Assembly (NCBI GenBank): GCA_913030835.1 | Contig: CAJWDP010000018.1 | Span: 1-58,079, forward strand | Direction: 5' to 3' | From: an uncultured Flavobacteriales bacterium | GTDB taxonomy: Bacteria > Bacteroidota > Bacteroidia > Flavobacteriales_D > Parvicellaceae | DNA length: 58,079 bases | Shown: piece by piece, positions 30,569-44,579 of the stretch | Numbering within the stretch: position 1 is the stretch's first letter | Layout of the letters: the number at the start of each line of letters is the position of its first letter | The notes under the pieces: generated by a model | Told to the model about the DNA's origin: nothing | Database searches by the model: none | The model's input: only the letters and a program-made list of their open reading frames with translations | Made by a program: the position numbers and the translations under genes

Positions 30569-33259
30569 CTAATCCAGGTAGTTGTCATCGAAGAACTCCT
30601 TATAGGCCGTATCGTCTTTTTCAATGAGTAGAGAAGCATAGTTTTTTCCGGATATTACAAAATAATTTTCCCCGGAATTGTAGTTTTTCAGAGATGTTTT
30701 GTTCACCTTAAACGCAACAAAATAATCCATTGCGTCATCTTTATTTTCAAAGGACCTTACCATAACCACCTGGTGATCTGAGTTTAGGAAATTACTCGAA
30801 GTAATTAATCCTTTGGTACTGAACGAATTTACATTGAAGTTCGAAATGCCCATTTTGATCGGATTAATACTTCCAGTAGTTTGATCGTGAACATAGACGA
30901 AGAAGTGTGCTTCCGCAGCGTCGTATATATACGTGCTTTTCCCTTCCGTGGCATTTTCCGTTGTTGATTGGTTTCTCAGCAAATCCATCGTCTTTTGAGC
31001 TTCAGCAGCTACATTCGATCCTTTACAGATCTTGATCACCTCAGACAACGCATTTTCAAATGCTGTCGGATCTACAGAGGGCGGACTGATCCGACCGATC
31101 GAAAGAGCCTTCAGATACAAATAGAGACACCTGTACTCACCAATTGTTGTATCGGATGCTACCTCGTTGGCCTTTGTAATGATTAAATTGTAGTTGCCCT
31201 TTTTGTATTCATTGTAATACTGTTTGTATTCGTCCTTAAGTCGGTCCAGTTCTTTTTGCCTTTTCTCCATGAATTTTGGATCTAGCAATAGCTGTGCATG
31301 ATCCGAATTAGGAAAGTCACGCAACAATCTGTCTTTAAAGGGTTGTGGTTTTACAGCAGTTGAAATTCCACCGATCCTAAACAGCTGGTACAATGCTGCC
31401 GGCGTGCGTTCTGATTTTGGAAACCGATCAACAAGTGATTTGAAGCTTTTGACAGCTTCAGGGTAATCGCTTAGCTCATCTTTATAAATAACTCCTTCTC
31501 CATACAAGGCATCAATGATCAGTTCATCGCTTTTTTTGTAGTCATCGGGAGTTTTAGGAATGTTCTGCAGGTACGTCTCAGGGTTGTAGCGCTCCGGCAA
31601 ATTTGTATCTGTTGAGTCTTTTTCTCCACCATCATTTCCAAAAAACGACCCATCCATTGCTGTTGCTTTATCCGAGCGGCGCCAATTGTCTTCCAACGGT
31701 CGATCGCCCCATTTTCTTTTAAAGTCTGCAAATCCTGAGCTTCTAAGCTGGGGATTGAACACCCAAAATTTCCCTCCTTTACCAGCGCTACTTGCTTGAG
31801 CCATAGCCGCATCAATTTGTTGCTGAAGCGCCTCCTCCCTGAGTCGCTCTTCTTCCTCTCTCAGCTCCTCTATTAATTTTGCTACCAGCTGCTCTTGCTC
31901 ATATTCCGAGAGTTTTCCAATCCGCTGCAGACTATCCTGAAGCTCAACCTGCTGAATATGGCCGATCAATGCCGTCAAGCTTTTGTTTTTAGCCTTAATC
32001 ACATCATATTCCGGATGTTCTTTATAAACGACACGAGCAGTACTGTCATAATAGGCCTGAGCGCTTTCATAATTTTTGTCTTCAAAATACAGGTTCGCCA
32101 ATCGTAAATACGTTTTTGTTTCCTGATGAACATTACTCGTGTTTGACTCTGCTGATTTTAGTAAATATGCGATCCCCTCTTCCTTGTTGTTCTCTTTCAG
32201 CTCCAGATCTCCGAGAGCATAATAGATCTGATCCAAATAGTCTATGTTTTTGTCGTCTTTGGCCATGGATAACAGCTCTTTTTTCAATTCACTTTTGTCC
32301 CCACCGCCTGAAAGTGCCCTGTTGATCTTCGCATAAAAGGTCATTTCATAGTCCGGGTTGCTTTTGATCACTTTGGTGTATGACTCATTTGCCAGCTCAG
32401 CATTTCCCGTTTTCTGATACAATTGCGCCAAAATAAAGTGCAATCGAGTCGTTAGCTTTCTACCGGGTTTTTGTTCGATCGTCAGATTGATGTTTTCAAT
32501 TGCTTTCTGCCATTCTTGTCTTCTAATGTGCAGGTCTGCACTGGCCGCATACACCTCGTAGCTGAGCTCAACCGGAAATGGCTCTATCGTCGTTGCTTCC
32601 TCATTCTTTGATTTCTTAGATTTTGATCCTTTTCTTGATTTTTTCTTTTTACTCCCGGCCAGCTTTTGTTTCAGAGTTTTAAAGCTCAGCTTTTCTTCAC
32701 GCGCTTTCTCAATAGCAACTTCTGCCTCCTCTGCTAATTGCGATAAATACTTAGCCGCAACCGTAAAGTCGCTCATCTCAATTCTGCACTTTGCAGACCA
32801 AAGCTTGGCCTTGTGCGAAATCTCTTTTGTTTCATACTGGTCCATTACGAATTCGAACATTTCGATCGATTCTTCATATTCCCTCTTATGAAATTTAGAT
32901 TTTCCAATAATAAACCAATTGTCATCTATCCAGCGGCACCATTCCGTTTTCGCATATTTTCCTTCTTTCTTTTCAGGCATCGAGTGCTTGTTGATCACTG
33001 TAGCACATTTCTTTATTGCCGTGTCCATCGCCGGATAAAGCGACTTGGAGTCCTTTTCATCAGCATATTTAAAAATGGGCAAAAGCTCATTGTAATTCTC
33101 TTTGAAACCAAGCTCGTAGCTATTTAAAGCTTCTTTCATCAGCTCGTTCGCATTGAAATAACCATTGTAACGAGCTGTTGTATTGTGGAATGAACGATTA
33201 AGCCATGCATTCTTTTCTGTGGAGCACGCCCAAAGCAGACAGCCAATACTAGCTGACAT
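30569..33259 (-). CDS. porW: T9SS lipoprotein PorW/SprE
   Basis: 896 residues. Start CSTEKNAWLNRSFHNTTARYNGYFN is the family signature of PorW (Porphyromonas) and SprE (Flavobacterium gliding), a TPR outer-membrane lipoprotein required for type IX secretion. TPR motifs cover about residues 100-450; a lysine-rich linker near 205-225 and a coiled Glu/Gln stretch near 455-500 follow. The ATG at 33259 leaves only 11 residues before the lipid-modified Cys12 and no basic residues; an in-frame CTG at 33292 would give a normal signal peptide (NTPRFISAVFMSAS...). Confidence 0.82.
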   Translation of the reverse strand: MSASIGCLLWACSTEKNAWLNRSFHNTTARYNGYFNANELMKEALNSYELGFKENYNELLPIFKYADEKDSKSLYPAMDTAIKKCATVINKHSMPEKKEGKYAKTEWCRWIDDNWFIIGKSKFHKREYEESIEMFEFVMDQYETKEISHKAKLWSAKCRIEMSDFTVAAKYLSQLAEEAEVAIEKAREEKLSFKTLKQKLAGSKKKKSRKGSKSKKSKNEEATTIEPFPVELSYEVYAASADLHIRRQEWQKAIENINLTIEQKPGRKLTTRLHFILAQLYQKTGNAELANESYTKVIKSNPDYEMTFYAKINRALSGGGDKSELKKELLSMAKDDKNIDYLDQIYYALGDLELKENNKEEGIAYLLKSAESNTSNVHQETKTYLRLANLYFEDKNYESAQAYYDSTARVVYKEHPEYDVIKAKNKSLTALIGHIQQVELQDSLQRIGKLSEYEQEQLVAKLIEELREEEERLREEALQQQIDAAMAQASSAGKGGKFWVFNPQLRSSGFADFKRKWGDRPLEDNWRRSDKATAMDGSFFGNDGGEKDSTDTNLPERYNPETYLQNIPKTPDDYKKSDELIIDALYGEGVIYKDELSDYPEAVKSFKSLVDRFPKSERTPAALYQLFRIGGISTAVKPQPFKDRLLRDFPNSDHAQLLLDPKFMEKRQKELDRLKDEYKQYYNEYKKGNYNLIITKANEVASDTTIGEYRCLYLYLKALSIGRISPPSVDPTAFENALSEVIKICKGSNVAAEAQKTMDLLRNQSTTENATEGKSTYIYDAAEAHFFVYVHDQTTGSINPIKMGISNFNVNSFSTKGLITSSNFLNSDHQVVMVRSFENKDDAMDYFVAFKVNKTSLKNYNSGENYFVISGKNYASLLIEKDDTAYKEFFDDNYLD

Positions 33260-33328
33260 GAATACGGCCGATATGAATCGAGGTGTGTTCAGAAGGAGGA
33301 TTTAACACATTTTATAACTCCAGAGAGA

Positions 33329-33336
33329 CAAAATTA
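33329..33336 (-). promoter_or_regulatory. -7 promoter element for porW
   Basis: TAATTTTG on the minus strand, exact TAnnTTTG match, 70 bp upstream of the ATG and 37 bp upstream of the in-frame CTG of porW. Confidence 0.4.
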
Positions 33337-33381
33337 TTTTAATTTCTCAATATTTCTATTGCTTTTACAAGAATTGCAGCG

Positions 33382-33397
33382 AGTATTCACGAATACT
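33382..33397. promoter_or_regulatory. Perfect palindrome between porW and M23 peptidase
   Basis: AGTATTC-AC-GAATACT, 7-bp arms. It lies in the 169-bp divergent region, about 16 bp upstream of a CATCTTTG box preceding the M23 gene, so it would overlap that gene's -33 region. Candidate operator. Confidence 0.45.
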
Positions 33398-33428
33398 GAG
33401 CCATATTTTAACCATCTTTGAACACAGT

Positions 33429-34319
33429 ATGAAAGGAGAAGGCACACCCAATAAAAAACCCATTCTGGAGCGGCTTCAAAAAAAGTCTAGGTATGTGCGA
33501 CTGAACAGTGATACCTTTGAAGAAGAACATTCATTCACCTTGTCCTACTTCAACATCTTGGTTTATCTGTTATTTGGGACAATTGTGATCTTCATTTTAT
33601 CGTATTTGGTCTTTTCTTATACTCCTCTGAATACATTGATTCCTAATGTTCCTGACCCGACGCTTGAGCGGGAGCGAGCGCAAATCGACAAAGAGAACCT
33701 GTCCACCATTGATCGAATCAGCACGCAATCAGATGCTCAGATCCGCTATAATAAAAATCTAATAGCGCTTTTAAACGGAGACACCCCCGACAGTGATCCT
33801 GAGAATTCAGTTGATTCTTCGAGAGACTACAGCAACATACAATTCCCATCCTCGGCTGAGGACAAACTATTGCGCGAAAAAATAGAACAGGAAGATCGAT
33901 TCAGCATTTCTAATCAAGTTCAAAGCGAGTCAAGGGACGATAAAATGAAAGGGGTATTCTTCTTCACGCCACTGGAAGGAACAATTTCAAATTCCTTTGA
34001 TCGCATTGCGGGCCACCATGGTGTAGACATCATTGCGCCCGAAAATGAAGCGGTTAAATCAACTCTGGACGGAACTGTTGTTTTTGCCGGATGGACATCA
34101 GAGAATGGTCATGTAGTCCAAGTGCAGCATGCGCACAATTTGTTGAGTATTTACAAACATAATTCCGTACTGTTAAAGTCTGTTGGCGACAAAGTAATTG
34201 CTGGAGACCCTATTGCAATCGTGGGGAACACGGGGTCGTTGTCGACCGGTGCACACCTTCATTTTGAGCTATGGTACAACGGCAATTCGATTGACCCTCA
34301 GGAGTTTATTGCATTCTGA
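33429..34319 (+). CDS. M23 family murein endopeptidase
   Basis: 296 residues. A cytoplasmic basic N-terminus (1-42), one membrane helix (43-63), a periplasmic linker, then an M23/LytM domain (about 180-296). The zinc site is complete: H196xxxD200 (HHGVD) and H276xH278 (AHLHFE). It should cleave peptide cross-links in peptidoglycan. Close by is a bactofilin, a family often paired with M23 enzymes in shape control. Divergent from porW. Confidence 0.9.
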   Translation: MKGEGTPNKKPILERLQKKSRYVRLNSDTFEEEHSFTLSYFNILVYLLFGTIVIFILSYLVFSYTPLNTLIPNVPDPTLERERAQIDKENLSTIDRISTQSDAQIRYNKNLIALLNGDTPDSDPENSVDSSRDYSNIQFPSSAEDKLLREKIEQEDRFSISNQVQSESRDDKMKGVFFFTPLEGTISNSFDRIAGHHGVDIIAPENEAVKSTLDGTVVFAGWTSENGHVVQVQHAHNLLSIYKHNSVLLKSVGDKVIAGDPIAIVGNTGSLSTGAHLHFELWYNGNSIDPQEFIAF

Positions 34320-36166: not shown

Positions 36167-36361
36167 ATGCGTTCTACACGAAAAGTTACAATTGTAGCTT
36201 GAAGCTGTATTAGAATTTTCTTTTTTGTTATTGAATTAAAAAAGGGGGCAATCACCTTCGACTCGACGCCGCAAAATACGTTTCATTGCTATTTCACAGG
36301 TGTTTCAACTAATAAACAGCAACTAACGATTTGCCCAATTTTCCGGATTCCCTTAAAACAG

Positions 36362-36401
36362 AAAAGCGAGTAGCACTCCGGATAGAAATGTACTCGCTTT
36401 T
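36362..36401. terminator. Bidirectional terminator-like hairpin
   Basis: AAAAGCGAGTA (36362-36372) and TACTCGCTTTT (36391-36401): perfect 11-bp arms around an 18-base loop, with T-runs on both strands. It lies 550 bp past the S8 protease stop with no other gene between, so it either ends a long 3' UTR or serves an unannotated RNA. Confidence 0.5.
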
Positions 36402-36950
36402 ACATTTAAAACTGTCACCAGTTTCCAATGTCCAAACTACTGTTATTGTGACTTCCGCTTCCACTAAATTCCGAAGAACTTTGCTTTCACTTCTAACTTT
36501 CCAGCAACTGTCGAACCCTATGAGATTTCGAAAAACCCCTTGTATTCAACGACCACTAAGGAATCCTATTTCAATCCAACTTACGAAGTAGTTAATCGAA
36601 ACATTTTACCTTCTTAAACTGCGTTGAACCGAAGTACTACACAATTCTAGAGAATTAATCCTACCCAAGCACTTTTCAGCGCCAAGGATTGAAGCAAATT
36701 TGGTCTGGAGCTAAGCTCTCTCAAACGTCAGGACTTCTTCGTTTTTCCTGATGATCCTTTCAACAATCTACTTCCCGGAACTAACCCTCGGGAGAATCTC
36801 ACCCGTTGGTGAGCCTTTTATCCCTCGTTTGGTTCTATAAACATACGCCATGGTACAGGAAAATTGCAAATAATTTACCCCGTAGTTATTAAGACGTTTT
36901 TAACTGCGGTTATTAACAAATGTTGATAACTGCGGTTTTTCTCCTGCAAG

Positions 36951-39900
36951 CTATTGAACTACAAGTTTAGTGGCGTATTGGTCCTTATCGGTTCTAACCG
37001 ACAACAGATACAATTCCTTACTAAGCCCTAAAACAGGGATTTGCACCATTGAAGTAGGGTTCGCAACAGAGCTGCACCTAACCAATTTGCCAATCGCATT
37101 GTAAAGTTCAATCTCAACAACCCCTTCCACGTCGTCAGGGAAGCTAAGAACAATTGAACCTGATGACCTATTTACGTAGGCATCCATTCCAGAAAGTGAA
37201 GCTGAAGGACCTTCTGCACCGGTTGCGCATTCCATGGGGGTTTTTACCACAACACTTGTGCTTTTGGTATCGATTTGTCCACAGGAATTTTCCACCAACA
37301 ACTGGGTAGAATACGTCCCATCCGTGTTGTATACTACGGTCGGGTTTGCAGAAGAAGACGATGAAATATCTCCCCCGACAAACGTCCACTCGTAAAGGCT
37401 CGCGCCAACGGATATCGCACCATTGTAATTAATAACTTCTCCAGGGCAAATGGTGTCACCACTTGATATAAAGTCCGCAGTTGGGGCGCTATCATCCACC
37501 TCTATGGTAACATACGTTGTTGCACTACAAGGCGCTGTCGTCCCCGTTACGGAATACGTTGTCGTAATTGAAGGGGTTGCAACGGGGGCGGGGCAAGAAG
37601 TGCACGATAATCCTGAAGCCGGAGACCACGTGAAACTTGTCGCTCCAGAAGCGGAAAGGTTTGATGCTCCTCCAGGACATATTGTATCATTACTTGAGGT
37701 AACAGAAACATCGGGTGTAGGTGACACTATAACAGCCGCCGAATCTATATGGTAAAACCCACAACTGTTGTAGGCTGCTAAATACACCATGTGTGTTCCT
37801 GCAGAACTCATCAATACGGAAGGGTTGCTTCCCGTCGGATAGGGTGTTGACGTTCCATTAATGGCCCATTCCCAATTGAATGCATTCGGTGAGCTCGATC
37901 CATCAAAATCGACATATGTTCCTTCACAAGCGGATACTACCGGAGCAATCACAGCCGTTGGGGGAGTTTGTGTAATTCGAGGGTAAATGTGCATGGACCA
38001 CTCGGCTGTTCCTATTTCTCCTCCGGTCTGGTACCATCCTCCACCCAATCCCAGCGGATCATCAGCCGGGTTTATGTAGTACATCATGGTATTGTTTCGT
38101 GACAGATCGGAGGTTAGGTCGTCTGTAAGAGCGCAATTCACAGTATCTCCAGCCGCGTAAAACAGCTCGTAGCCCACGTAAAAATCAGACGTTGAAACGA
38201 ATACAGGGGCGTCAAAGTTGACCTGAGTAATATAAAAAGAACCGGGACCGGGACCGGCTACATTGGCCTCAATCTCATCAATTAATACGTCTTCTGTATA
38301 GACAACGGTTCCGGGCGAACCGCCAGCGTCTTCCCACACCATGATCGTAATGTATGCCGTGGGGTCGCTTGTTTCTCCCTGGGTAAAATAAAAGTCTGCA
38401 CCCATCAGATTGGTAGAGCCTAGTCCTGAATATTTGTCGCAAATGTATTGCGGATGGATAAAGTTGTGACCGCCAATATATCCATTTACAGCGCCCCAGG
38501 TCCAGGTATAGTTTGCGTCAGAAGGAATCGTATTCGATACCGTATCACAGCCGGTCAATGCATTCACAGTAATGTAGGCTGTTTCTGTTTTTGTATCTGA
38601 ACCATTCGCATTTGTTACCGTTAGCTCTACCGTGTATGAGCCTGCTGTGCTATACGTAATTGCCGGAGGTGTAGGGCCTGTATGCGTTGAAGGAGTGCCG
38701 CCCGTGAAAGTCCAGTCCCAGCTTGTTGGATTGTGATATGATAAATCCGTGAAGTTTACCGATTGACCAACTACAATATTGGTTGGGGCACCATTGAAAT
38801 CTGCGACCGGGGACCAGTTCAGCGTAGCGGAAACACAGTTCATCGCCGCAAGTGCATTGATCCTTCCATCACCGAGCTGGCCAACGTAACTCGGGTTCGA
38901 ACCATCTATATTGTCTGCGGTAGATCGAATGCAGTTCTCCACATCATCAGGGTTCAGTCCCGAGTTCAGGGATAGAATTAGCCCTGCCAATCCGGCAACC
39001 ATTGGGGAAGCCATTGAGGTTCCCTGCTTGAAATCATATGTGTTTCCGGGAACGGTGCTCCAGATTGCACTCCCGGGAGCAGTAATGTCGATCCAGGAAC
39101 CATAATTGGAAAATCCGGATTTTGAGTCTCCAAAGGTTGAAGACGCTACAGAAATGACATGATTGTACGCAGCTGGGTAAAATTGAGTGGACACATCGTC
39201 ATTGCCTGCGGCAGCAATACAGGTAACTCCATTTGCGTAGGCAAAATCTATAATTGATTGTGCTGTTGTCGACGATCCACTTCCTCCCCAGGACATGTTG
39301 ATGACATCAGCTCCTGAATTAACGGCATACACCACACCATCGTATCCATGTGACACTACACTTGCAGAATTTGTTGATTTAACGGCCATAAGGGAAACTC
39401 CAAAACCTATTGATGCAACTCCTGTAGCATTGTTTGTTGCTGCTCCCGCAATTCCCGCCACATGAGTACCGTGATCATAGGCCGGGCCATCCGGATTAGG
39501 GTCATTGTCATTATTTGCCACGTCAAACCCGTCTACATCATCTACGTATCCATTGCCATCGTCATCCACGCCATTACCTGCTATTTCACCCGGGTTTGTC
39601 CAGATTACCGGGCTAAGGTCATCATGTGTAATTTCAACTGCATCGTCGACTATTGCCACTACAATACTCGAACTTCCCGTTCCCAAATTCCATGCTGTTT
39701 CTGCATTAATTTGAAACAGACACCACTGGTCTGTGGAGTTAAAATCCGGATCGTTTGGCGTTAATGTTTTCTTTAGCAATTCAACTGGCTCAGCATACTC
39801 AACAGAGGGGTAGCTGTTTAACTTTCGAATCACTTCTTCAGTCCCTGCTGCATCGGCCAGCGTCAACCTGTAAATTCTGTTGAGCCCTTGATCAGATTGT

Positions 39901-40169
39901 ATGTGCCGAAAAGGCTGCTCCACCCTGTCGAACTCTACAGCGTTATTTAATTCCTTTAAAAACGGGACCTGTTCTGCACTCAGATCGTGCCTGTCGTCAA
40001 TGGTTGTCTTCCCGATTCGTGCTGCCTGTCTTCCCAAAACCGTCTCTTGTTTTACTTTGACCCAGATCTGGCCTTCCGCATAATCGTGTTGGTTTTGTTG
40101 TGAAAAAGAAACTGAAGAGAAATGAAAAGTTAGCATTGCCATGAACATGGCGATCATTAGTGGTTTCAT
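36951..40169 (-). CDS. Secreted S8 subtilisin-like protease with PKD and T9SS domains
   Basis: 1072 residues. Signal peptide to about residue 24, a propeptide-like region to about 140, then a peptidase S8 domain with catalytic Asp175 ([10 protein letters not shown]), His233 ([12 protein letters not shown]), oxyanion Asn323 and Ser385 ([11 protein letters not shown]). A PKD domain (about 455-535) and later Ig/PKD-like repeats (e.g. [21 protein letters not shown]) precede a T9SS-type C-terminal region ending [19 protein letters not shown]. It is an extracellular protease exported by the type IX system, likely feeding on protein. Confidence 0.9.
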
Positions 40170-40334
40170 AGTTAGTAGTTGGTTAAGAAGAGTAGCAATT
40201 TAACGAAAAAACGGTAATCCCTGGTGCTGGTCTTTGTGGCCTCCTGTAATAAATCGCTCTTTTCCCCGTAATGTCTATCGACATAAAGATTATAAGGCTA
40301 TCTTTACCGCCCTTATTTGTATTGCTATAGAGCT

Positions 40335-42137
40335 ATGAACAAATTCATTCTAACCATTGTATTCGGCTTTTTGCTTGTTGCGGGCAATGCACAAGTGAGG
40401 CTTTCGGTCAATGATCAGTGGCCGGATACCATTTCACAAGGGACTGCAATCAGTTTTATTCTGGAGGCAGATTTGCCCGACTCATTGCTTACAGGATCAT
40501 TTCCCGATGCAATCGTAATCGAAGACGCGGAAAACTCTCTGAGGTATTCTGATACCATCTTCCTGGAGAATAATCCCCAGCTATTTGATTCGGAAAAAAA
40601 TGCAACAAGTTTCCCGCTTTCATTAGAGACAAGCAGTCTGCCGGTTGGGCAAAATGAAGTGACCATCCAGGCTTATTTGGAGGATAATCCGGTAGGCAAT
40701 TTATTGACGATGAAAACCGTCCTCAAAGCCCCGTTTGAACCGGAGCCAGAAAGTACGTTTTGGATAAAGGCTGCTCAATTGTTGTTGAGTCTATCCATCC
40801 TCATTGTTTTGCATGAGCTTGGTCATATGGTTCCTGCACGCCTTTTCTCAACACGGGTAGAAAAATTTTATCTGTTTTTCAATCCGGGGATGTCCATATT
40901 CAGATATAAAAAAGTAAATGGAACTAAGCGGTATTCCTGGTTCACCAAAAAGTCTCCCGAAGCTTGGGAAGAAGATCTAAATACTACAGAGTGGGGGCTT
41001 GGCTGGCTTCCTTTGGGTGGATACGTGAAAATCGCGGGAATGGTTGATGAATCCATGGACAAAGAACAAATGGCTCAACCTGCTCAGCCATGGGAATTTA
41101 GATCAAAGCCGGCATGGCAAAGGCTGATTATTATGATTGGCGGGGTTGTCGTTAACCTAATTCTTGGGTTTTTGATTTACATGATGGTTTTAGGTGTATG
41201 GGGGAGAGATTACGTAAACCAAGGGGATGTGTCCCATGGGTTTTCCGCAGCTCCGGTAGCAAAAGACATTGGGTTTCAAGATGGTGACAAGATTCAAAGT
41301 GTAAATGGTGAAGAGCTGTTCAGCGTTCTAGACATCAGTAGACACCTGCTGATGAGAGATGTAAACACCGTTGAGGTAGTGCATCAAGATGGTTCGGAAG
41401 AAGCCATCTCCATACCTGAAGACTTTGGCATGACCATGTGGAAAAACGGCCAGGAAGTTCCATTGACCCCGGTTGGTTTTGCCACCTTGGACTCCGTTTT
41501 GCCGAACCGTGCAGCAAGCGCGGCAGGTTTGTTGAAAGGAGATAGTATCTTATCGATCAATGGCAATCCGGTTCAGTATTGGCATGAGGCTAAGGCAGAA
41601 ATACAAAAGGTTTTCAACTCAAATCTATTGATGAAAGTTTATCGCAACAATGAGGCAATTTATCTCGCTGTAAGAAATGACTCCTTGGGCAAAATTGGTG
41701 TATCTGGCGGGTCGCCAGCCAAAACCATTTCAGTAAGTCATAAAGATTTTTCGTTTTCCGAGGCGATCTCTGAGGGCTTCTCCTATGGATATTGGACCTT
41801 GCACGATTATGTTGTACAGTTCAAATATGTTTTTACCAAAAAAGGAGCTACCCAGATCGGTGGATTCGGAGCCATTGGAAATTTGTTTCCGGCTGCCTGG
41901 GACTGGAATCAATTCTGGATGAACACTGCCTTAATTTCTATCATCCTTGCTTTTATGAACCTGCTGCCCATACCTGCACTCGACGGGGGGCACGTTTTGT
42001 TCCTTTTATGGGAAATGCTTACGGGAAGAGCCGTAAGCCAAAAGGTACTTGAGCGCGCGCAAACCGTGGGCATGTTGTTGCTTCTGGCCCTGTTGCTTTA
42101 TGCAAATGGCTTAGACGTTATAAAAGGGTTTTTCTAA
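40335..42137 (+). CDS. rseP: Site-2 protease RseP with N-terminal periplasmic extension
   Basis: 600 residues from the ATG at 40335, which starts a signal peptide (MNKFILTIVFGFLLVAGNAQ). Residues about 20-140 form a beta-rich, Ig-like extracytoplasmic segment. The intramembrane protease follows: zinc motif HELGH at 160-164 in the helix QLLLSLSILIVLHELGHM, a PDZ region at roughly 300-450, and the second ligand motif NLLPIPALDGGHVLF with Asp550. RseP cleaves anti-sigma factors and leftover signal peptides. In E. coli the zinc motif is near residue 22, so about 137 residues are extra. Confidence 0.88.
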   Translation: MNKFILTIVFGFLLVAGNAQVRLSVNDQWPDTISQGTAISFILEADLPDSLLTGSFPDAIVIEDAENSLRYSDTIFLENNPQLFDSEKNATSFPLSLETSSLPVGQNEVTIQAYLEDNPVGNLLTMKTVLKAPFEPEPESTFWIKAAQLLLSLSILIVLHELGHMVPARLFSTRVEKFYLFFNPGMSIFRYKKVNGTKRYSWFTKKSPEAWEEDLNTTEWGLGWLPLGGYVKIAGMVDESMDKEQMAQPAQPWEFRSKPAWQRLIIMIGGVVVNLILGFLIYMMVLGVWGRDYVNQGDVSHGFSAAPVAKDIGFQDGDKIQSVNGEELFSVLDISRHLLMRDVNTVEVVHQDGSEEAISIPEDFGMTMWKNGQEVPLTPVGFATLDSVLPNRAASAAGLLKGDSILSINGNPVQYWHEAKAEIQKVFNSNLLMKVYRNNEAIYLAVRNDSLGKIGVSGGSPAKTISVSHKDFSFSEAISEGFSYGYWTLHDYVVQFKYVFTKKGATQIGGFGAIGNLFPAAWDWNQFWMNTALISIILAFMNLLPIPALDGGHVLFLLWEMLTGRAVSQKVLERAQTVGMLLLLALLLYANGLDVIKGFF

Positions 42138-42164
42138 CAGATATAAACTTTTAAGTATTCATAA

Positions 42165-42184
42165 CTAGGCTGCATTATGCCTAG
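42165..42184. repeat. Inverted repeat upstream of the 42.2 kb gene
   Basis: CTAGGC-TGCATTAT-GCCTAG, 6-bp arms, without T-run. It is 20 bp upstream of the TAAATTTG box; function unknown. Confidence 0.25.
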
Positions 42185-42203
42185 ATACGGCTATCAATCT
42201 CCC

Positions 42204-42211
42204 TAAATTTG
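42204..42211 (+). promoter_or_regulatory. -7 promoter element
   Basis: TAAATTTG, exact TAnnTTTG match, 19 bp upstream of the ATG at 42231. Separates this gene and the antiporter from rseP. Confidence 0.4.
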
Positions 42212-42230
42212 ATAGTATAAGTAGGTTGAT

Positions 42231-43193
42231 ATGCGCTGTGTTTTATCTATTGTACTGTTTTCATTGCTTTGCACTTCCTTTTTAGCTCAAAATCGGAACG
42301 GAATTTTTACAGGAGAAAAAACCGATCAAGAAGCTTATTCAGAGGGCCAAACAGCATCTGACCGAGTTTTAATCGTTCCGTTTGAGCCGAAAATGTACAT
42401 GTCAGGAATTGACAAAGACATTTCCATGAAAACCGGAATGACATTTCAGCAAATTCGCAACAATATGCGCTTCGGCCTTTGTAATGAGTTGCTCTCTCAG
42501 CTACATGGGCAAATGAAAACAACCTCTCTTATGCATCTTGATACAGGAGGCATAGAGGAAGAGCTACGGTACATCTATGCTTCAATCGGATACAAGTATA
42601 AAGAGATGCCCACAGAACAAATGGTTCCAGTCAAAGAAATAGAGCCAGGAGAGGATGCAAAAACGATTGATAAAGCGAAGTACAAGCTCAATACCTTGGT
42701 AAACAATGTAAAGGATAAAGTCAACACAATTGGAGAGACTGAGGAAGAAGAGCCGGTAAGATCTGCAGGTGTTGTCAACGGCGAAGTCGTCACCAGCTAT
42801 GACGATGCTGAACGCTACATGGCGACCAGTATCCATAACCCAAATCTGCTAAATCAGCTGAATATGAAATTTGGCGCAACAAAATTTATGTTCATTAATC
42901 AGCTGGACATTGAACGGGCCGCCAAACCCACTCAAAGGGGTCTGGCAACGGATTCTTACCAAAGGAAAATTAAAGTGCACTATACCATTTTCAACCTTGA
43001 TGGCACCGAGTTTTCTTCCGGAGCAAGTATCTCGTATTTTCCTTCTAGGGTAAATGATATGAACATCATTATCAAAAACCACTTTGCTGCCATTTCCAAA
43101 CACATTTCTTCCAAACTATCCGAACCCGAAGCAAATCATTCCGGGGAACGAGAAAAGTCCAAAGACACCAGAAGTGAGATTGAAAAGTACTAA
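42231..43193 (+). CDS. Secreted protein of unknown function
   Basis: 320 residues with a signal peptide (MRCVLSIVLFSLLCTSFLAQ). A mature part with a VLIVPFEPKMYMSGIDKDI strand, a lysine-rich central linker (TIDKAKYKLNTLVNNVKDKVN) and an acidic stretch EEEEP, then FMFINQLDIE and VHYTIFNLDGTEF strands and a charged tail. No known motif. It is 3 bp upstream of the cation/proton antiporter gene, so co-translation is likely. Confidence 0.6.
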   Translation: MRCVLSIVLFSLLCTSFLAQNRNGIFTGEKTDQEAYSEGQTASDRVLIVPFEPKMYMSGIDKDISMKTGMTFQQIRNNMRFGLCNELLSQLHGQMKTTSLMHLDTGGIEEELRYIYASIGYKYKEMPTEQMVPVKEIEPGEDAKTIDKAKYKLNTLVNNVKDKVNTIGETEEEEPVRSAGVVNGEVVTSYDDAERYMATSIHNPNLLNQLNMKFGATKFMFINQLDIERAAKPTQRGLATDSYQRKIKVHYTIFNLDGTEFSSGASISYFPSRVNDMNIIIKNHFAAISKHISSKLSEPEANHSGEREKSKDTRSEIEKY

Positions 43194-43196
43194 CAC

Positions 43197-44579
43197 ATGA
43201 ATACCTATTTATTCATTATTGGTGTTTCTCTGGTAATTATTCTTAGCTTTTTCTTCAACATTCTAGCGAAACGAACGAATATTCCAAGCGTCCTGATGTT
43301 AATTGCTCTTGGAATAGGAATTCAGTATTTGGCCCCACATATAGGCCTTGAGTTTGAAGAGGATCATTACTTGATGAACCAATTGAAAATTCTTGGCAAT
43401 ATCGGTTTGATCCTCATCGTGTTGGAAGCCGCGCTAGACCTAGAGCTGAAAAAAGAAAAGATTGGTATTATCCTGAAATCATTCTCAGTCGCTTTACTTG
43501 CACTCGTTGGGTCGTCCTTTTTGATCGCTATGCTCATCTCCTTGTTTTTTGCCGACGCCTCCTTCATCAAAGCCTTAATATACGCCGTTCCCTTATCCAT
43601 CATGAGCAGCGCTATCATCATTCCAAGTATCGGAAGTCTCGAGAAAGACAAAAAAGAGTTTCTGATTTATGAGAGCACATTTTCAGACATTCTCGGCATC
43701 ATGTTCTTTTACTTTCTTATTCAAAACGCCGATGCAGAGAGCGCGGGAAGTGTTTTGATTAACATTGGGAAAAACATTGGTATCACTCTGATCATTAGTA
43801 TTGTCGCTAGCTACGCCCTTGTTGTACTGTTCCAAAAAATAACAAGCCCTGTAAAGCTATTTCTGATTATCGCTGTTCTCATGTGTTTGTATGCAATAGG
43901 AAAGTCATTTCACCTGTCTGCATTGATTATCATTCTGATGTTCGGCTTGGTACTTAATAATACCGGGTTGTTTTTTAGAGGGCCGATGAAAAAGCTAAAC
44001 AACAAAGCTGTGTTAAAGCCAATTTTCCACGATTTTCATGTGTTAACACTCGAGTCTGCATTCGTGACTCGCACATTTTTCTTTGTTCTTTTCGGAATTA
44101 CCATTCACCTAACTTCCCTCATTGATCTGAGAATTGCGATTGTAAGCTCAGTAATTATCGCATGTCTTTATCTTGTGAGGTGGATTTCTTTGCTTGCGAT
44201 CGTTCAAAAGGCAATAACACCCCAGCTCTACATTGCCCCTCGAGGATTGATCACCATACTCCTTTTTTACGCGATTCCGGACGGCTGGATGAACTTTCAT
44301 GGTGAGATGCTGGACAAGTACAATTCCAGTTATGATATGACCATCCTGAACTTTGAGTCAGGCATCTTGTTGTTTACCATATTGATTACCAGCTTGGTGA
44401 TGATGGTGTCCTTGGTTGTGAATCGTGGGGGCAAAATGAAAGATGTTCTTAAAATGAGTGTTGCTGCAGAGGAAATGGCTGATAAGACAAGCTTTGATGG
44501 TGATGAGCCTGAGCCTACCGAACCCGAGTCGGCCGAGTCCAATGAATCGCCGAACGAAAATTCTGGCCAAATCCAATAA
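43197..44579 (+). CDS. Cation/proton antiporter (CPA1-like)
   Basis: 460 residues with about 12 membrane segments. The opening NIPSVLMLIALGIGIQYL and the FIKALIYAVPLSIMSSAIIIPSI block resemble the Na+/H+ antiporter helices, and the ESTFSDILGIMFFYFLI segment near residue 160 contains the acidic residues expected at the ion site. The last ~40 residues are strongly acidic (DGDEPEPTEPESAESNESPNE), a cytoplasmic tail not seen in all members. It exchanges cations for protons, relevant to salinity or pH. Confidence 0.8.
   Translation: MNTYLFIIGVSLVIILSFFFNILAKRTNIPSVLMLIALGIGIQYLAPHIGLEFEEDHYLMNQLKILGNIGLILIVLEAALDLELKKEKIGIILKSFSVALLALVGSSFLIAMLISLFFADASFIKALIYAVPLSIMSSAIIIPSIGSLEKDKKEFLIYESTFSDILGIMFFYFLIQNADAESAGSVLINIGKNIGITLIISIVASYALVVLFQKITSPVKLFLIIAVLMCLYAIGKSFHLSALIIILMFGLVLNNTGLFFRGPMKKLNNKAVLKPIFHDFHVLTLESAFVTRTFFFVLFGITIHLTSLIDLRIAIVSSVIIACLYLVRWISLLAIVQKAITPQLYIAPRGLITILLFYAIPDGWMNFHGEMLDKYNSSYDMTILNFESGILLFTILITSLVMMVSLVVNRGGKMKDVLKMSVAAEEMADKTSFDGDEPEPTEPESAESNESPNENSGQIQ

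Follow-up and report, generated by a model that had tools for sequence, protein, structure and literature searches.

The Fused rseP Gene

The window (the whole stretch of 58,079 nucleotides analyzed) contains an rseP gene whose product bears, ahead of the protease, an orphan segment led by a signal peptide-like sequence, an arrangement found in one genome so far. The protein should be the membrane stress protease shared by the relatives plus an extra front segment, a part that would lie outside the membrane and is absent from the relatives examined. Our preferred reading, to which we assign, anatomy included, a probability of roughly 45%, is the lineage-specific gain of an N-terminal domain by the only RseP of this genome, with the new segment gating or docking substrates. 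No such fusion was found in the literature searched, which consisted of titles and abstract openings, with subscription journals mostly outside it.

Positions 40335–42137 are translated as a single open frame of 600 amino acids with zero internal stops; the frame and its parts lie on the plus strand. Residues 1–19 (40335..40391), MNKFILTIVFGFLLVAGNA followed by Q20, comprise a basic n-region, a hydrophobic core, and small residues before the cut, ending in GNA ahead of Q20, as judged by eye (the cleavage site included) and by hydropathy. By eye they also resemble the starts of neighboring proteins of the window, and they represent a candidate Sec signal peptide, with cleavage likely before Q20. 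They are followed by an acidic orphan segment (residues 20–130; 40392..40724), presumed to be periplasmic, and by the Pro/Glu linker KAPFEPEPE (residues 131–139; 40725..40751), which precedes the first protease helix. Matches to the congeners start at S140, and a complete RseP module occupies residues 140–600 (40752..42134). It includes the HELGH zinc motif (residues 160–164; 40812..40826), a PDZ tandem at approximately residues 292–459 (41208..41711), recognized by two Pfam PDZ stretches and by a match to RseP PDZ tandem structures, and DGG (residues 550–552; 41982..41990), the second conserved protease motif. The earlier note had placed HELGH at residue 160 and had described a signal peptide-like start and a soluble segment fused in frame to RseP, and the translation bears this out.

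The Protease Module

The fused protein scored 203.1 bits against the RseP family TIGR00054 (cut-off 147.55) and 120.5 bits against NF008046, the E. coli-type sigma-E protease equivalog, which is below the cut-off of 477. Residues H160, E161, G163, and H164 are invariant in 47 aligned sequences, as are D550, G551, and G552 in the same alignment, and hydrophobic segments at residues 259–291 and 527–551 flank the PDZ tandem. AlphaFold prediction, proposed in the earlier note, was successful for the protease and failed for the extension (see below). The model was aligned with E. coli RseP 7w6x (Z 25.9, rmsd 6.5, 417 residues aligned) and with Aquifex aeolicus RseP 9j83 (Z 23.6), and its residues 292–460 with the RseP PDZ tandem 3wkm_A (Z 16.0, 3.5 A, 160 residues); VIA-align structure matches mostly span residues 292–463 and are uninformative on the extension. 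Both RseP structures share with the fused protein the zinc site, the PDZ tandem, and the four-TM plan, but in the alignment their chains start with TM1, whereas the fused protein has a part before TM1. Judged by its sequence, the stretch from residue 140 to residue 600 is an ordinary, complete RseP, that is, a Group I site-2 protease, with the conserved residues kept. Apart from the fused gene, no PF02163 (M50) gene was found in the genome, a 3.14 Mb draft of 86 contigs.

Changes in conserved columns were compared between the window and a congener. Those present only in the window amounted to 0 of 13 in PDZ-N and 1 of 15 in PDZ-C, those present only in the congener to 3 and 0, respectively; no burst that would point to co-adaptation of the PDZ tandem with the extension is seen. 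Window-only changes were most frequent in residues 171–259 (5 of 52, vs. 2 in the congener), numbers too few to build on. FecR-type anti-sigma factor substrates gave no match in the genome. That the RseP module looks ordinary also fits the main rival to our reading, in which the segment is a tolerated passenger: a secreted ORFan lying between promoter and rseP would have been joined to the protease by loss of its stop and of the rseP start, and would have no role in proteolysis. We grant this rival a real, though minority, chance.

Homology Searches and Physical Character of the Front Segment

The profile search of the front segment, suggested in the earlier note, matched no family: residues 20–139 were without a hit in Pfam or NCBIfam at E values up to 10, under HMMER filters that drop most weak matches. 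The segment likewise matched no PHROGs family and no PDB sequence up to E 10, and nothing in phages and plasmids up to E 1. Genome searches gave 3 others at E ≤ 10 among 60 relatives and 3 others at E ≤ 1 among 39 genomes of the family, both at chance level. Among 399 genomes of the order 17 others were found at a per-genome E ≤ 0.1, where chance would give about 40, and 395 genomes of the phylum yielded 2 others at E ≤ 0.01, against a chance expectation of about 4. The family, order, and phylum samples overlap slightly, and about 790 genomes of the phylum were covered overall. A DNA search with the segment returned, apart from the segment itself, only pieces of 16–41 bases.

The best-looking match, L125 (E 0.003, 23% over 103 residues, ungapped), lies close to the N-terminus of a large lipoprotein-like protein whose only family match, to DUF7743, is weak. 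Single-locus BLAST gave 7e-08 for L125 and 3e-06 for L117, values obtained with a 3 kb database and without composition correction. Both loci were treated as chance matches rather than homologues, given E values drawn from so small a database, though they may be distantly related to the segment.

Residues 20–139 have a net charge of −15, a pI of about 4, and no Cys. No hydrophobic 19-mer is present in residues 21–139, where the Kyte-Doolittle maximum is −0.33, in agreement with the claim that the added part contains no membrane helix. When the fused protein was modeled with 47 RseP sequences, the block-mean pLDDT over residues 1–140 was 23–41, and residues 1–137 lay below pLDDT 50; from the single sequence, the mean pLDDT was 36. 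Six strands were drawn in the extension, which was modeled only within the whole protein, at a block-mean pLDDT of at most 41, that is, with low confidence. The earlier note had called the segment beta-rich and Ig-like. The first term has as its basis these low-confidence strands and a guess from composition; the second is so far unsupported, since strands at low pLDDT do not support an Ig fold, no confident model was obtained, and no Pfam or NCBIfam family matched.

The segment thus yielded neither a homologue nor a confidently predicted fold nor a conserved residue, which leaves a selected function conjectural, and a segment with neither homologue nor conserved motif, present in one genome only, is in keeping with the tolerated passenger. 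The layout of putative signal peptide, soluble acidic body, and linker is that of a small exported protein, and it would suit a segment with its own periplasmic job (binding, adhesion, or chaperone-like), RseP being a mere anchor or a second cut freeing the segment. However, no free-standing relative above chance was found in the 39 family, 399 order, and 395 phylum genomes, and we regard an independent job of this kind as improbable.

Coding Character of the Extension

The 417 bases before S140 have a codon score of 0.175 per codon, compared with 0.119 for the RseP part and a mean of 0.161 (sd 0.073) for the window's own genes, taken over 100 pieces of the training set. None of 500 wrong-frame pieces reached the score of the extension, the best of them coming close at 0.172. 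GC content by codon position is near-equal in the extension (0.51/0.36/0.48) and in the RseP part (0.51/0.37/0.47). When the 417-base segment was shuffled preserving dinucleotides, 34 of 20,000 shuffles stayed open in frame, and none of these 34 had a comparable hydrophobic start by a hydrophobicity criterion chosen post hoc. An open front segment with a signal peptide-like start therefore exceeds chance. These features tell against the tolerated passenger, since the extension is still soluble and still has a signal peptide-like start, both of which the topology demands. Furthermore, gene-like codon use together with loss of the rseP start codon (see below) indicates that the fusion seems to have persisted.

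Promoter Block and Loss of the Ancestral Start Codon

A promoter-like block, ATTATAAGGCTATCTTTACCG (40289..40309, plus strand), is common to the rseP genes of the congeners, in which it takes the form A[A/T]TATAAGGTTATATTTACCG and is located 22–23 nt before the rseP ATG; its counterpart in the window stands 25 nt ahead of the fused ATG. Each of three genomes of the genus contains a single copy of the block at two or fewer mismatches, always just upstream of rseP, and G037, the fourth genome searched, contains none; at three or fewer mismatches it appeared in 0 of 100 window shuffles. The motif TAnnTTTR, which we take to be a promoter consensus, occurs only once on the plus strand of 40170–40760, at 40299 within the block, and not near Met126. 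The rseP start reads ATG-AGT-GAA-TTT-TGG in both congeners and GAA-AGT-ACG-TTT-TGG in the window. Comparison of ATG AGT with GAA AGT indicates that the ancestral start is gone and that the first codon in common is codon 2; furthermore, no ATG, GTG, or TTG is found between residues 126 and 149 of the fused frame. About 138 codons now stand between the native rseP promoter block and start and codon 2, and the position of the block before the fused ATG, together with the lost ancestral start, suggests that they were added there. Most simply, they arrived in one insertion, or a short gene for an exported product first came to lie behind the promoter and was then fused to rseP. The locus is also a clear example of a domain gained at a start codon, since two congeners still display the arrangement that preceded the gain.

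The in-frame ATGs of the fused gene lie 159 and 34 codons ahead of HExxH. The second, Met126 (40710..40712, plus strand), is the sole further in-frame ATG ahead of that motif and a possible internal start, from which RseP could be made while the upstream frame was separate or untranslated. Nevertheless, the upstream frame is coding-like and has a signal peptide-like start, an ATG is present 16–23 codons before HExxH in the 106 other frames, and the one consensus scanned gave no promoter-like site near Met126, only the native one at 40299. Such an internal start is very improbable.

An artefact in which a frameshift or chimera joined two genes, a concern in a draft assembly of 86 contigs, is hardly credible. 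A frameshift is made unlikely by the gene-like codon usage, the lost ancestral start, and the placing of the rseP promoter block ahead of the fused ATG; this objection, already raised in the earlier note, does not fit the locus. Moreover, if a frameshift were undone, RseP would still have no start codon near the usual place; promoter block, extension, and protease are ordered as for one transcript; GC by codon position is nearly equal in both parts; and the flanking blocks are collinear with the congeners.

Distribution of the Extension Among Relatives

Neither congener (G001, locus L005; G002, Crocinitomicaceae bacterium SI075_bin79, loci L004 and L037) has the extension. Their proteins begin MSEFWIK and are 70% identical to the fused protein over residues 140–600. 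The RseP of L037 (TIGR00054, M50) thus shares with it the protease module, the promoter block, and the downstream neighbor, but, unlike the fused protein, has no signal peptide or front segment. An ATG 16–23 codons before HExxH was present in 106 of 107 other RseP-like loci fetched (103 distinct sequences), the exception being L052, where the script had picked the wrong frame; a stricter scan for an ATG near HExxH found it in 97 of 97 loci, L052 counted in. Two further loci, L012 and L028, yielded no RseP-like frame.

The fused protein matched 55 of 60 genomes, its own included, and outside its own genome nothing matched upstream of residue 133. In a 150-genome search 148 genomes matched, again including its own, and the smallest start elsewhere among the matches listed was residue 117, in a locus (L134) with the native ATG present. 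Among the matches listed in this search, frames longer than 500 codons occurred in at least 14 genomes besides that of the window. Nine of these loci were read; all keep an ATG 16–23 codons before HExxH, and no signal peptide was seen by eye in their upstream stretches. Five such genomes fall outside the nine: in G407, G479, G421, and G381 the matching part starts with residue 141 or 142, and G445 is represented among the matches listed by a C-terminal piece. In two of the nine, L127 and L128, the HExxH frame has only 439 codons, earlier values of 697 and 661 not being reproduced. L111, which seemed to match from residue 65, was discarded as a candidate, having its own ATG and a separate gene of 389 aa ending just upstream. 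In a further phylum sample TIGR00054 matches were found in 296 of 296 genomes (295 over cut-off), and, with the window's own gene left out, frames among the matches listed did not exceed 522 codons.

The possibility that the extension is a lineage trait, also put forward in the earlier note, was rejected, the extension being absent from every other RseP locus examined; in the other loci read, the position of the RseP start varies by no more than a few codons. Several relatives (L129–L135) have long stop-free stretches upstream of rseP and keep the native ATG, the stretch in L129 being stop-free up to 305 codons before HExxH. Since such stretches occur beside a native ATG, open-frame length alone would mislead start-site annotation.

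Proposed Topology and Role

In E. coli RseP, which spans the membrane with four TM segments, the PDZ tandem lies in the periplasm between TM2 and TM3 (PMC7728848), and this arrangement places the N-terminus of the protease in the periplasm. The tandem acts as a size-exclusion filter (PMC7728848, PMC10202637). A soluble N-terminal tail of 120 residues should need a signal peptide to reach the periplasm; one is seemingly present, and the mature protein would therefore carry an N-terminal domain on TM1. The topology outlined in the earlier note is thus workable, with a signal peptide-like start and an N-out RseP. The signal peptide would direct the segment across the inner membrane and then be cut, TM1 would serve as a stop-transfer helix, keeping the N-out topology of RseP, and a domain of about 13 kDa would be tethered to TM1 via the Pro/Glu linker, beside the PDZ tandem. 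With less certainty, this domain may serve as an additional gate or docking site in the periplasm and so alter the choice of substrates admitted to the active site; access could well change with a 13 kDa body placed beside the size-exclusion filter of the tandem. Position alone suggests this gating role, and ligand sensing by the domain is no more than a possibility. The sensing, docking, and inhibition raised in the earlier note are conjectural roles. More doubtful is the specific proposal that, in one lineage, the protease has acquired its own periplasmic lid or sensor in front of TM1, where the orphan domain would act in cis with the PDZ tandem to choose which membrane proteins are cut. If it were true, RseP would be regulated without a separate inhibitor or a first protease. 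With an exported segment placed before RseP behind the same promoter block, the locus would offer a natural experiment on periplasmic control of intramembrane proteolysis.

Long N-terminal parts are present in the plant EGY proteases. Accessory domains added to the S2P core are also found in the Group III (CBS domain) and Group I (variable PDZ number) site-2 proteases; in the portion of the source available these additions are PDZ or CBS domains, not a signal peptide-led segment ahead of TM1 (PMC10202637). Access to a site-2 protease is likewise controlled by a second part in SpoIVFB with its inhibitors BofA and SpoIVFA. As far as the available portions of the sources go, however, BofA and SpoIVFA are separate membrane proteins, whereas here the part is a fused, putatively periplasmic domain (PMC9042235, PMC10202637).

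Gene Neighborhood

Blocks collinear with the congeners lie on both sides of the extension (31095–34309, 36356–36930, and 40758–44454), and the genes at 34.4–36.1 kb differ from those of L037. Directly downstream of rseP, as in both congeners, is a gene for a protein of 320 aa with a signal peptide-like start and no Pfam or NCBIfam match (42231..43193, plus strand). On the other side is a gene for a subtilase with Peptidase_S8 and PKD domains (36951..40169, minus strand), absent at the same place in both congeners; its product also shows weak similarity, scoring under the cut-off, to a secretion sorting tail. The distance from an upstream palindrome to the promoter block is 128 bp in both congeners and 3358 bp here, and only here, of the three genomes, does a 3.2 kb subtilase gene intervene between that block and the conserved element upstream. 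The subtilase gene is a second lineage-specific insertion beside rseP.

The upstream element (36345–36945) is conserved and non-coding, with its two best blocks 80–84% identical to the congeners; the DNA near it, mostly coding, is 67–70% identical. It contains no ORF over 86 aa and no Rfam family over threshold, and its folding gave z −3.9 on the minus strand and z −3.0 on the plus strand (20 shuffles each). Two inverted DnaA box-like 9-mers are located at 36910–36929, the window total being 4 vs. 3.1 by chance. GC skew is negative to 34 kb, near zero at 34–42 kb, positive at 40–50 kb, and then negative. The element is a candidate replication origin or structured RNA. The palindrome within it, at about 36908–36931 (4802–4825 in L037), is a perfect 24-bp palindrome in the congeners and imperfect in the window. 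Matches of 25–34 bases overlapping it were found in five genomes belonging to two further genera within the family (G003, G011, and G018; G004 and G019), and their occurrence in other genera makes the palindrome a candidate for a conserved protein-binding site.
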